Source: Prolixibacteraceae bacterium
GTDB lineage: Bacteria > Bacteroidota > Bacteroidia > Bacteroidales > Prolixibacteraceae
Length of the DNA stretch: 64,000 bases
Assembly (NCBI GenBank): GCA_025355875.1
Contig: JANXYV010000115.1
Coordinates: forward strand, 1-64,000
Direction of reading: 5' to 3'
Part shown: positions 35,712 to 40,363 of the stretch, one piece after another
How the letters are laid out: each line of letters begins with the position of its first letter
Numbering within the stretch: position 1 is the stretch's first letter
Program-made: the position numbers and the translations under genes
The notes under the pieces: generated by a model
What the model was told of the DNA's origin: nothing
The model's database searches: none
What the model saw: only the letters and a program-made list of their open reading frames with translations

Positions 35712-38177
35712 ATGAGAGAACGACTAGTATTGATTTTGTTTCTCTTGTCCGTGACCATGAGCTACGGACAGAAAAACTGGAAGGCTGAAGGGATTAAATT
35801 GCCTCCGGCGGTCTGCTATGCATCACCCGAATCGTTTCAGACCTTCGTACATCCACCTGCTGATTACAGCGAAAGACTAAAATCCGGTATTCTCAAGAAA
35901 GCTGTAATTGTCGTCAAGTATGTAGATTTTCCTCCCGACGCACAGGCTGCATTTCAGTATGCAGTTGATATTTGGCAGACCCTGATTTATTCTCCGATTC
36001 CGATTCATATCACGGCAACCTGGACAAGTCTGGCCGCCACTATTTTGGGAAGTTGTGGTCCTTCCGATTATTACAAAAATTTCAATGCCACCGAAATTTG
36101 GAATACCTATTATCCGGTGGTGATTGCCGAGAAAATGCTTGGCGAGGAAATAAACGGGCCTGATCAATCGGATATGGATGCTTCGTTTAATAAGGATTTT
36201 CCAAATTGGTATTTCGGTATTGACGGGAAAACGCCGTCTGACAAATATGATTTTTCATCAGTGGTTCTGCACGAGCTGACCCATGGTTTGGGTTTTGTGG
36301 GTAAATTTTATGTGAGTCGTGGCCGGGGTGGCTACGGTGATGACGGGTTACCTGCCGTTTTTGATGTTTCGGTTCAAAACCAGGCAGCAGAAAAACTGGT
36401 CAATACCAAATTATTTGCCAACCCATCGGTAAAGTTAAACCTGGCTTTGACCTCCAACTGGCTTGCCTTCAACAACGGCGCAACCCAGGGAAGTTTTCCC
36501 AGGTTATATGCCCCAACCATCTGGGATACAGGCTCAAGTATTTATCATCTGGACGAAAATACCTATCCGGCCGGTGATCCGAATTCACTGATGACCCCGT
36601 TCACCGGAATGGGCGAAGCGATCCACAATCCAGGCGAATCTACCCTTTCCGTTATGTACCATATGGGATGGAAATCAGTTTCAATCTGGCATATGCCGTT
36701 GAAAGACATTGAATATGTGACTAAGCCACTCAGTTTCATGGCGAAGATCACCAGCGATTACGATCTCGATTCCACCAAATTGTTTCTGGTGTACTCGACC
36801 AATAAATTTGTGAAAAAGGATTCGGTCCTGTTGAAAGCGACTGCTGTTCCAACTGAATTTGCCACCACATTGAACCTGAAACAGAACGGTGAAGTTGACT
36901 ATTACTTTTCAGCGAGCGATGTCAAAAAGCAGCGATTTGTATTTCCGTCAGGTGCATCAACCCAATATTTGAGTTTCAATATTGGGATTGATAAAATAGC
37001 TCCGGTCGTCGTTCACACTTCTGTGAAATACCTCATGAACACTGACCTAAGCACAAAAATATCGGCCCAGGTGACCGATAACATTGCAGTAAAATCGGTA
37101 AAGCTGGAGTATTTTGTGAATGGTGGAATGATTCAGGAATTGGCCATGAAAAACGATTCTGCGGACACGTATTCAGGAAACCTGTCATTTCCTAAATGGT
37201 CTATAAAAGATGGAGATTTAGTGAGTTACCATATCGTGGCAGTTGATGCTTCCTCCCAGAGCAACATTGGTTATCTGCCACTTTCCGGATATTTTACTAT
37301 CCGGATCTATGGCTTTCAGAAACCGGTTCTGGTTTACACTAATAATTTCGACAAGGATTCGCTTGATTTCATCAGTTCCAGTTTCAGGAATTATAAGGTG
37401 GCAGGTTTCGACAGTCCAGCCTTGAATTCTCAACATCCTTATTCCAGCCCTGATGCCGACAATCAGGAACTCAATTTCACCACGGTTTTGAAATATCCGA
37501 TTATCCTGAAACCGGGAGGATTGATGCATTATGATGAAATCGTACTGGTTGAACCGGGAGATCCGGGAACCAAATTTGGAGATGCAAACTTCTTCGATTA
37601 TGTGATTGCAGAAGGCTCATTAGATAAGGGAACTACTTGGAAACCCTTGGCCGACGGGTATGACAGCAATTTGCACGCAGCATGGGCAACGCTCTGGAAC
37701 AGTGCAATTACAGGAAATAACAGTACCGCCGTGCCAACGAAGGATCAATTTGTCAATCACGAAATCAACTTGCTGGCCAACGGAAATTTCAAGGAGGGAG
37801 ATACAATCCAGGTCCGTTTCCGGTTGTTTTCCGATCCTTATGCGCATGGCTGGGGCTGGATGATTGATAACCTGAAGATCCAGGATATTGAAACCGGTCT
37901 CAAGCCGGGCCTTTTAGCTTCCGGAGAGGTGAATTTCTTTCCAAATCCGGCAACTGATCGCCTGAATGTACAGGTCAGGATGCAGAAAAATGTGCATCAG
38001 CTGATTCTGAAAGCATTCAATTCCTCCGGAAGTTTGGTTTATATTCAGACCTTTCCGGATGCATCCGGCGATTTCCGGACTGAGATTGATGTGAGCAATT
38101 TCACAAAAGGCTTGTATTTGTTTTCGGTTGAATCTGAGAATGGACCGATGGTTACCTGCAAAATTCTGATTCAATAA
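35712..38177 (+). CDS. secreted zinc-metallopeptidase-like protein with T9SS C-terminal sorting domain
   Basis: 'SSVVLHELTHGLGFVGKF' (HExxHxxGF); C-terminal 'FFPNPATDRLNVQVRMQ...FTKGLYLFSVESENGPMVTCKILIQ' T9SS type-A-like domain; start at internal ATG (ORF to 35691). Confidence 0.82.
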   Translation: MRERLVLILFLLSVTMSYGQKNWKAEGIKLPPAVCYASPESFQTFVHPPADYSERLKSGILKKAVIVVKYVDFPPDAQAAFQYAVDIWQTLIYSPIPIHITATWTSLAATILGSCGPSDYYKNFNATEIWNTYYPVVIAEKMLGEEINGPDQSDMDASFNKDFPNWYFGIDGKTPSDKYDFSSVVLHELTHGLGFVGKFYVSRGRGGYGDDGLPAVFDVSVQNQAAEKLVNTKLFANPSVKLNLALTSNWLAFNNGATQGSFPRLYAPTIWDTGSSIYHLDENTYPAGDPNSLMTPFTGMGEAIHNPGESTLSVMYHMGWKSVSIWHMPLKDIEYVTKPLSFMAKITSDYDLDSTKLFLVYSTNKFVKKDSVLLKATAVPTEFATTLNLKQNGEVDYYFSASDVKKQRFVFPSGASTQYLSFNIGIDKIAPVVVHTSVKYLMNTDLSTKISAQVTDNIAVKSVKLEYFVNGGMIQELAMKNDSADTYSGNLSFPKWSIKDGDLVSYHIVAVDASSQSNIGYLPLSGYFTIRIYGFQKPVLVYTNNFDKDSLDFISSSFRNYKVAGFDSPALNSQHPYSSPDADNQELNFTTVLKYPIILKPGGLMHYDEIVLVEPGDPGTKFGDANFFDYVIAEGSLDKGTTWKPLADGYDSNLHAAWATLWNSAITGNNSTAVPTKDQFVNHEINLLANGNFKEGDTIQVRFRLFSDPYAHGWGWMIDNLKIQDIETGLKPGLLASGEVNFFPNPATDRLNVQVRMQKNVHQLILKAFNSSGSLVYIQTFPDASGDFRTEIDVSNFTKGLYLFSVESENGPMVTCKILIQ

Positions 38178-38199
38178 TCACAGATAAAATAAAAACTCT

Positions 38200-38207
38200 A
38201 TATTTGC
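38200..38207 (+). promoter_or_regulatory. putative -7 promoter box for aromatic-leader transcript
   Basis: TATATTTG matches the Bacteroidota -7 consensus TAnnTTTG, 18 nt before the leader-peptide ATG; no clear -33 TTTG. Confidence 0.5.
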
Positions 38208-38225
38208 CCTCAAATTGAACGTAAA

Positions 38226-38300
38226 ATGAAACGCACCAGTAACAATAGTTTTTTTTATTGGTTTTATTACTTCTGTTCTCAAATCGGGATCGGCGGGTAA
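38226..38300 (+). CDS. aromatic amino acid attenuator leader peptide (24 aa)
   Basis: Hand translation: MKRTSNNSFFYWFYYFCSQIGIGG*; run of eight consecutive Phe/Tyr/Trp residues; followed by terminator and tyrA. Confidence 0.82.
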   Translation: MKRTSNNSFFYWFYYFCSQIGIGG

Positions 38301-38330
38301 TGTCTTGTTGTTACAAAAAGATAATTTACA

Positions 38331-38363
38331 AAAGGGTCCCCGTGCTGAACGAGGCCCTTTTTT
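38331..38363 (+). terminator. rho-independent attenuator terminator upstream of tyrA
   Basis: AAAGGGTCCCCGTGCTGAACGAGGCCCTTTTTT: AAAGGG/CCCTTT, CC/GG, CGT/ACG arms, loop GCTGA, T6 tail, 12 bp before tyrA ATG. Confidence 0.85.
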
Positions 38364-38375
38364 AATTTTAGAAAT

Positions 38376-39269
38376 ATGAAACTTACAGTAATTGGTTTGG
38401 GATTGATCGGCGGATCGATGGCAAAAGACCTTCGGAAAGCTGGTTTTGCTACTGAAATAACCGGGGTTGATGTCAATCCTGAGAATGCTCAGGAAGCGCA
38501 ACGTCTTGGAATTGTCGACCGTGTTGAAACGCTGGAAAATGCTGTTTTAAAAGCTGATCTGGTACTCATTGCAATTCCGGTCGACAAGGTGTTGGCGACC
38601 TTGACTACCGTCCTTGACCTTGTTTCGTCGCAAACCACGGTGGTGGATGTGGGATCGACCAAAAAATCAATTTCAGAAGCGGTCGAAAAGCATCCCCGGC
38701 GCCGAAATTACGTTCCTGCCCATCCGATGGCAGGTACCGAAAACTCCGGACCCGGAGCAGCGTTGGAAGGATTGTTCGAAGGAAAAATCAATATCATTTG
38801 CGATCAGGAGAAAAGCGGACCGCAGCACCTCGCCCTGGCCGAAAAAATGTTTCAGGTATTGGGAATGGACATTGCTTACATGACCGCCGACGATCAGGAC
38901 CATAGTACTGGCTTCATTTCTCACCTGCCACATGCGGCGGCTTTTGCTCTTGCCAACGCCGTGCTCGACAAGGAAGATCGCGAAATTATTTTCGATCTGG
39001 CCAGTGGTGGATTCAACTCAACAGTACGTTTGGCAAAGAGTTCTCCGGAAATGTGGGGACCCATTTTTCAACAAAACAAGGAGTATATTGTTGAATCACT
39101 GGAAGTTTATATCAAACACCTGAAGGCATTCAAAAAAAGCATCGAATCCGATCCGGAACAAATGATGGCACTGATGAAAAACGCCAACCGGATTCGGGGA
39201 ATATTAGCCGGCGAAGGCGATTCGCTGGTAAAAAATGAAAAGACAATCGTTAAACTTTATACAAAATAG
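38376..39269 (+). CDS. tyrA: prephenate dehydrogenase
   Basis: 'MKLTVIGLGLIGGSMAKDLRKAGF', 'DVGSTKKSISEAVEK', 'YVPAHPMAGTENSGPGAA', 'HLPHAAAFALANAV'. Confidence 0.93.
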   Translation: MKLTVIGLGLIGGSMAKDLRKAGFATEITGVDVNPENAQEAQRLGIVDRVETLENAVLKADLVLIAIPVDKVLATLTTVLDLVSSQTTVVDVGSTKKSISEAVEKHPRRRNYVPAHPMAGTENSGPGAALEGLFEGKINIICDQEKSGPQHLALAEKMFQVLGMDIAYMTADDQDHSTGFISHLPHAAAFALANAVLDKEDREIIFDLASGGFNSTVRLAKSSPEMWGPIFQQNKEYIVESLEVYIKHLKAFKKSIESDPEQMMALMKNANRIRGILAGEGDSLVKNEKTIVKLYTK

Positions 39270-39271
39270 TC

Positions 39272-40363
39272 ATGGGAATTCACTTGGAAATTAACCCGAT
39301 CAGGCACTGGCTGCCACAAATTAACAATCCGCTGATCATTGCCGGACCTTGCAGTCTCGAAACCGAAGAGCAGGCAATGGACACCGCCCTTCAACTCGCC
39401 AAAGATCACCGGGTTTTCGTTTACCGTGGCGGAATCTGGAAACCCCGGACCCGCCCCGGAAGCTTTGAAGGCATTGGTAGCATTGGCCTGAAATGGCTGC
39501 AAATGGTTCGCGAGGAAACGGGTTTGCCGGTAGGTACTGAGGTGGCAAACGCTCAACACGCTGAAGAAGCGTTGGATGCCGGTCTGGATGTACTTTGGAT
39601 AGGAGCGCGCTCGACCGCCAGTCCGTTTGTTGTCCAGGAAATTGCCGATGTGGTAAAAGGAACCGATGCGGTGGTAATGGTGAAAAACCCGGTCAATCCC
39701 GATGTTCAGTTGTGGGTTGGAGCGTTTGAACGGCTGAGCCAGGCCGGAATTAAAAACCTCGTGGCTATTCACCGTGGTTTTACGCCTTTTCGCGAAACCG
39801 AGTACCGGAACTATCCCAACTGGAAAACAGTGATCGAATTGCGCCGTTTGATGCCTAATTTGCCTATTATCTGCGATCCTAGCCATATTGGCGGCAAACG
39901 TGAATATCTTTTCGATATTAGCCAGAAAGCCTTCGATATGGGAATGGAAGGGCTGATGATCGAATCTCACCGCGACCCGTCGTGTGCACTGAGCGACAAG
40001 GAACAACAACTTACACCGGTTGATCTGGCCAAATTACTTGACAGGTTGGTGATCCGTACTGTCACTTCTGACAACAAATTGTTTGAAAATCAACTCGAAA
40101 TGCTGCGCAGCCGGATCGACGCCATCGATACCGAATTGCTCGAAACTTTATCGTCTCGTATGGAGGTTGTCAGGCAAATTGGTCAGTATAAAAAAGACAA
40201 CAATGTGACTGCGTTTCAGGTTGGACGTTTTTCTGAACTGATGGAGAAACGCATGAAACTGGGTGAAAGCCTGAACCTTGACCCGAATTTTGTGCTGCAA
40301 ATGTTCCAGCACATTCACGAAGATTCGGTGCGGATGCAGACAGAGATTATGGATAAGGAATAG
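39272..40363 (+). CDS. bifunctional 3-deoxy-7-phosphoheptulonate synthase / chorismate mutase type II
   Basis: DAHP synthase 'IIAGPCSLETEEQ', 'YRGGIWKPRTRPGSFEG', 'IICDPSHIGGKREYL' plus C-terminal AroQ-like domain 'LEMLRSRIDAIDTELLETLSSRMEVVRQIGQYKKD'. Confidence 0.94.
   Translation: MGIHLEINPIRHWLPQINNPLIIAGPCSLETEEQAMDTALQLAKDHRVFVYRGGIWKPRTRPGSFEGIGSIGLKWLQMVREETGLPVGTEVANAQHAEEALDAGLDVLWIGARSTASPFVVQEIADVVKGTDAVVMVKNPVNPDVQLWVGAFERLSQAGIKNLVAIHRGFTPFRETEYRNYPNWKTVIELRRLMPNLPIICDPSHIGGKREYLFDISQKAFDMGMEGLMIESHRDPSCALSDKEQQLTPVDLAKLLDRLVIRTVTSDNKLFENQLEMLRSRIDAIDTELLETLSSRMEVVRQIGQYKKDNNVTAFQVGRFSELMEKRMKLGESLNLDPNFVLQMFQHIHEDSVRMQTEIMDKE

Follow-up and report, generated by a model that had tools for sequence, protein, structure and literature searches.

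The window analysed here, a 64,000 nucleotide stretch of DNA from a Prolixibacteraceae bacterium, very probably contains a ribosome-mediated transcription attenuator of the trp/phe/his type which controls tyrA and the adjacent gene for a DAHP synthase/chorismate mutase fusion (DAHPS/CM). By direct reading of the sequence we located a 24-codon leader open reading frame (ORF) with eight consecutive aromatic residues, flanked by a TATATTTG box on its 5' side and by a T6-tailed hairpin on its 3' side, with 12 nt separating the end of this hairpin from the start of tyrA and a spacer of ~30 nt between the leader stop codon and the hairpin (Table 1). This arrangement had been described in a first-pass annotation of the DNA, the coordinates of which were all correct to the base. 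Of the parts expected of an attenuator, those present in the sequence are a leader ORF with cognate codons, an intrinsic terminator, an antiterminator that is exclusive of it, and a spacing that suits a ribosome. Leader ORFs of this kind are so short that annotation can miss them, and the same approach should therefore reveal further regulators in Bacteroidia.

Table 1. Positions of the leader, its RNA elements and the regulated genes in the window, with the trp operon leaders of the same genome
Feature	Position	Strand	Remarks
TATATTTG box	38199-38206	+	Match to the Bacteroidota -7 promoter box TAnnTTTG; predicted transcription start ~38213
Leader peptide ORF MKRTSNNSFFYWFYYFCSQIGIGG	38226-38300	+	24 codons and TAA; homologous leader in all orientable family loci
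Segment 1 (GUAACAAUAG), codons directly before the run	38239-38248	+	5' arm of helix 1:P; 10 bp with 38305-38314
Control codons FFYWFYYF	38250-38273	+	4 Phe, 3 Tyr, 1 Trp; ~98% aromatic in 59 sequences
Segment 2 (CGGGATC)	38285-38291	+	5' strand of the outer antiterminator helix, within the last leader codons; pairs with 38335-38340
Likely inner antiterminator helix	38297-38306 with 38318-38323 and 38326-38329	+	5' arm holds the stop codon
Segment P (UUGUUGUUAC), after the stop	38305-38314	+	3' arm of helix 1:P; pairs with segment 1
Intrinsic terminator	Hairpin 38330-38361; T6 38358-38363	+	5' arm 38335-38340 common to the antiterminator
tyrA, prephenate dehydrogenase	38376-39269	+	First regulated gene; NF006307 350 bits (cut-off 295); PF02153 and PF20463
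DAHPS/CM fusion	39272-40363	+	Second regulated gene; PF00793 and PF01817
trp operon locus L135 (G000:C53)	Leader starts 594 and 738; trpE 895

tyrA is single-copy in the genome. The DAHPS/CM fusion begins 3 nt past it, and the same gene order is seen in 50/50 of the family loci that were tested. Over 59 aligned family leaders the TATATTTG box is near-invariant at ~20–30 nt 5' of the leader start and, judged by its sequence, is a candidate promoter; no clear -33 TTTG promoter element was found in the window.

Conservation of the leader and its control codons

Among 200,000 codon shuffles of the leader, none gave eight of eight aromatic codons and at least seven of eight arose at a frequency of 3e-5. 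A T-rich run is by itself not special, with 118 runs of five Phe/Tyr codons in the genome compared with 187 for the reversed control pattern, and the folding energy of the whole leader alone is unremarkable (z = -1.3). Likewise, a genome-wide search for leaders by five-codon Phe/Tyr runs performed at chance level, with no further leader followed by a terminator among the 30 loci read. Our conclusion that the leader is more than a chance occurrence is therefore drawn from its conservation and not from the T-rich run or the leader folding energy.

Among the best family loci (n = 30) the leader was detected in 28, the remaining two being L012, whose contig breaks off within the run, and L026, which is without the region. 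A second set comprised 40 family loci of other genera, and here an aromatic leader lies upstream of tyrA in 39/39 of those that could be orientated. Within the 59-leader alignment ~98% of cells at the eight run codons are aromatic, with Phe, Tyr and Trp interchanging and third positions varying, and the lengths of indels there are divisible by three. Aromatic codons account for 46% in frame 0 versus 15% and 21% in the other two frames. Furthermore, the run, stop codon, antiterminator and terminator stay in register in the 59 family leaders. Whether homologous leaders keep the aromatic run had been set beforehand as a test of the attenuator proposal, and they do.

Antiterminator, terminator and helix 1:P

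An antiterminator had been suggested between GGGATC (38286-38291) and GGTCCC (38335-38340), and both motifs are found where they had been placed. Across the family this pairing covaries, and it excludes a terminator which itself covaries: 96.9% of cells are paired in the outer antiterminator helix, with changes on both sides in 4/7 pairs, while for the terminator 93.2% of cells are paired, with changes on both sides in 6/9 pairs. For both structures 0/500 shuffles equalled the real alignment in percentage paired or in covariation score, and both also covary in deduplicated alignment blocks. RNAalifold analysis of the whole alignment returned the antiterminator as the sole consensus helix. A compensatory change is illustrated by L049, in which CGGGAUC:GGUCCCG is replaced by GGAGACU:GGUCUCC.

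When the stretch that begins with segment 2 and ends with the 5' arm of the terminator was folded sequence by sequence, the lowest-energy structure of nearly all family members was a similar bipartite antiterminator, in which an outer helix of 6–7 bp is joined through an internal loop to an inner helix which the first-pass annotation had missed. In the inner helix 81% of cells are paired compared with 31–62% for slid controls, with no excess covariation in the family alignment, and it is likely that this helix extends the antiterminator. The lowest-energy fold of the leader also contains an inverted repeat at ~38266-38301.

Antiterminator and terminator have nearly equal mean energies over the family (-16.6 and -17.4 kcal/mol, respectively), with values of -15.6 and -13.1 kcal/mol in the window. 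The terminator 5' arm of the window (38334-38341) carries an extra C (GGTCCCC) compared with GGTCCCG in genus relatives, so that U38337 is bulged and the window hairpin weaker than those of the strongest relatives (-13 to -15 versus ~-22 kcal/mol). The extra C may reflect faulty sequencing or assembly of this MAG, or could represent real tuning.

The hairpin might simply end transcription of the T9SS metalloprotease gene upstream, a same-strand gene with its end at 38177, 48 nt 5' of the leader, with the leader ORF being incidental, and a same-strand ORF does lie upstream in 59/64 family loci. However, the association of the leader and its structures with tyrA persists whether the upstream gene is RsgA-like, glycoside-hydrolase-like or other, and also where the nearest ORF is on the opposite strand, and a promoter-like box separates the upstream gene from the leader. 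A plain terminator would also require neither antiterminator covariation nor conservation of an aromatic frame, and we rejected this explanation as highly improbable. We also considered translational control, in which the hairpin would hide the tyrA start with no termination of transcription, and which would suit the approximately one half of the family where the T-run ends just 12–22 nt before tyrA. Elsewhere, however, the T-run lies 100–253 nt upstream with the anatomy unchanged, and the aligned leaders show a G+C hairpin with the T-run directly after it, so this was rejected as extremely unlikely. Measured from the leader, the T-run end is 60–66 nt 3' of the stop codon in most family leaders.

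The attenuator also appears to include a helix, termed 1:P, which had not been noticed previously. The near-invariant codons AAC AAT before the run are complementary to a conserved TATTGTT after the stop, and the resulting helix, within which the run and segment 2 lie, is not nested with the antiterminator. Within the genus 185/190 cells are paired, in a register 3 nt off that of other genera. For these other genera, represented by 39 sequences, the paired fraction is 83.5% of cells compared with 29–54% for slid controls, with changes on both sides in 5/9 pairs and 0/500 shuffles matching the covariation score. Shuffle tests on single leaders were significant in 44/59, with p = 0.08 for the window itself, and outside the family a similar duplex was significant in 15/51 leaders, where 2 or 3 would be expected. 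By analogy with trp 1:2 hairpins, helix 1:P is probably a pause/protector hairpin.

Predicted response to aromatic amino acid supply

We propose that scarcity of charged Phe- or Tyr-tRNA, or of Trp-tRNA where Trp codons occur, would slow the ribosome on FFYWFYYF, and that on the first codons of this run the ribosome would cover segment 1 and open helix 1:P. A ribosome slowed short of segment 2 would then allow CGGGAUC and the inner helix to form the bipartite antiterminator, which would capture GGUCCC and permit RNA polymerase to continue into tyrA. With sufficient aromatics the ribosome would instead reach the stop at 38300 and cover segment 2 together with the beginning of the inner helix, and the terminator would form ~60 nt downstream. 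In an untranslated leader, helix 1:P would probably act as the pause/protector hairpin, with termination being favoured.

Toeprinting places the leading edge of the ribosome ~12 nt past the first base of the A-site codon. Segment 2 begins 14 nt downstream of the first base of the last run codon, both in the window and in 45/59 leaders, and because of this spacing a ribosome on the run is expected to leave segment 2 free, and to cover it when at the stop, which is 13 nt after the segment 2 start in 55/59 leaders. The stalling versus completion scheme put forward in the first-pass annotation thus fits the geometry of the leaders. In L067 and L068 (2/59) the ORF ends before segment 2 and the RNA strand is nonetheless kept, which indicates that the leader tail is conserved as RNA and not as peptide.

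If the leader peptide were itself the sensor, as in TnaC, the nascent chain would arrest the ribosome on free aromatic amino acid and codon starvation would play no part. The almost fixed order of YWFYYF in the genus and near genera is in keeping with such an arrest, but across genera F, Y and W replace one another and change order freely (YFYFYFYY, FYFWFGY, TYYFWFYYF) and composition alone is kept. In addition, arrest on excess would open a biosynthetic operon just when it should be closed, and we rejected this mechanism as very unlikely.

For attenuation by codon starvation, we modelled the ribosome by removing the part of the RNA that it covers and then folding the nascent RNA with 9–10 bases hidden by RNA polymerase. 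The antiterminator was dominant in 37–47 of 59 leaders with the ribosome at the last aromatic codon and in 0/59 with the ribosome at the stop, an outcome that depends on the number of bases RNA polymerase hides; with 9 nt hidden, its probability in the window was 0.99 and 0, respectively. For the untranslated leader of the window, however, the model favoured the antiterminator (0.87–0.89), which counts against the scheme proposed above. Equilibrium folding at full length with masked ribosomes revealed no switch, as the terminator won at every ribosome position, and the decision would therefore have to be kinetic, as it is in known attenuators.

The suggestion that the leader senses total aromatic supply is only partly supported, with codons for both Phe and Tyr in 59/59 family leaders but Trp codons in 45/59 and none in 14/59 despite the same operon content. 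A sensor of Phe plus Tyr, with Trp optional, is better supported than one of total aromatics, because Trp is missing from leaders that have the same operon and because the trp operon has its own Trp-rich leaders. An association of Trp codon loss with loss of DAHP synthase from the operon was rejected, as DAHPS/CM is always present, with or without Trp codons (50/50). In a narrower version, which is not exclusive of the attenuator as proposed, attenuation would be real but only Phe and Tyr would be effectively sensed, with the single Trp codon being incidental. We regard this as a serious possibility that falls somewhat short of an even chance: the leaders without Trp all retain Phe and Tyr, the operon is identical either way, the trp operon of the genome owns two Trp-rich leaders, and tyrA and the chorismate mutase serve Phe and Tyr, whereas W is retained at the same codon (38259) in 43/59 leaders and Trp too is fed by DAHP synthase.

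Relation to known attenuators and distribution in Bacteroidia

Leader-peptide attenuation is a classical mechanism, and the tyrA leader resembles E. coli pheA/pheL and trp/trpL (RF01859 Phe_leader and RF00513 Trp_leader, respectively) in having a cognate-codon ORF, a strand common to antiterminator and terminator, a biosynthetic operon 3' of these and, as a candidate, a pause/protector-type hairpin. It differs from pheL and trpL in that the codons are for two or three aromatics including Tyr, segment 1 precedes the control codons and is not within them, and the antiterminator has what is likely an extra inner helix. Codons for several related amino acids in one leader are known from ilvGMEDA- and thr-type leaders, although these are branched-chain or Thr/Ile codons and not the aromatic trio seen here. 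To our knowledge, leaders with Tyr codons, or with pooling of all three aromatics, are not among the classical attenuator examples. The pooled Phe/Tyr(/Trp) specificity, the detailed anatomy and the tandem form described below appear to be undescribed in the literature searched, which lies outside subscription papers, and comparative attenuator surveys of the 2000s may contain parts of them. The anatomy presented here is full and testable, and offers an account of how gut, soil and marine bacteria of a large group may regulate aromatic synthesis.

The Bacteroid-trp motif (RF01692) precedes trp genes. This motif is listed as a likely cis-regulatory RNA of Bacteroidetes (PMC2864571). In contrast, the genes in the window are tyrA and DAHPS/CM, and there was no match at gathering to RF01692, RF01859 or RF00513 in the window and none at E ≤ 1 for L001. 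Likewise, no T-box or known riboswitch was matched by Rfam in the window, where only a tRNA reaches gathering. In Flavobacterium psychrophilum a transcriptome-supported structured 5' element upstream of pheA, with no Rfam hit, is reported, along with strong clues for leader peptide attenuation at amino acid operons (PMC9723704). The likeness to this element lies in the class of bacteria, which is the same, and in the related pathway, the passages that describe it giving no leader sequence, codon content or mechanism (PMC9723704).

In the same genome the trp operon has a tandem pair of Trp-rich leaders of its own, MIKNTNTVWCPWWGLLVNLRG and MNQMNKTNWWWHRNFSQIRGRK, both with a T-tailed hairpin after them, and Rfam Bacteroid-trp gave no match at this locus. 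No aromatic leader was found within the 1.4 kb read near pheA, which lies elsewhere in this genome.

In other Bacteroidales families, aromatic-rich leaders were observed before the first gene of a longer cluster, typically with two genes of ~280 and ~390 aa, presumably pheA and an aminotransferase, upstream of tyrA. Tandem leader/terminator units precede this cluster in L104, L105, L114, L119, L122, L125 and L126, with most of the tandem leaders having their own antiterminator and terminator, which poses the question of serial gating. Outside the family, the antiterminator duplex was better than 95% of shuffles in 39/51 leaders. A leader and terminator were detected upstream of pheA in 9/10 other genomes of class Bacteroidia compared with 2/30 from the other classes of the phylum, these counts being estimates made with simple filters on a pheA-based sample. 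By these surveys, comparable leaders occur before pheA or tyrA operons across class Bacteroidia and are rare outside it. As a tentative extension, which we consider rather less than evenly balanced, the whole class may gate entry into Phe/Tyr(/Trp) synthesis by pooled-aromatic attenuators, often two in series before pheA, with a Tyr-responsive attenuator and an additive or AND-type sensor as the standard regulator. If true, this would be a class-wide standard aromatic regulator in a group with none described.

A palindromic repeat element of ~100–130 nt (CCCCCTTCCC...GGGGGAGGTTTGGAGGGGGCTT) was observed directly 3' of the attenuator T-run, before tyrA, in L003, L009, L012 and L018. The end of this element is present in 14/23 genus genomes, with 1–6 exact copies in each, and it may prefer terminators as targets. 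Beyond class Bacteroidia, L168 and L176 each have an aromatic leader and hairpin before pheA (MKQNYKQARYYFYFYFYFFSSPGGYCLF and ...NNYYTGFGFYYFYLTRPSCRD, respectively).
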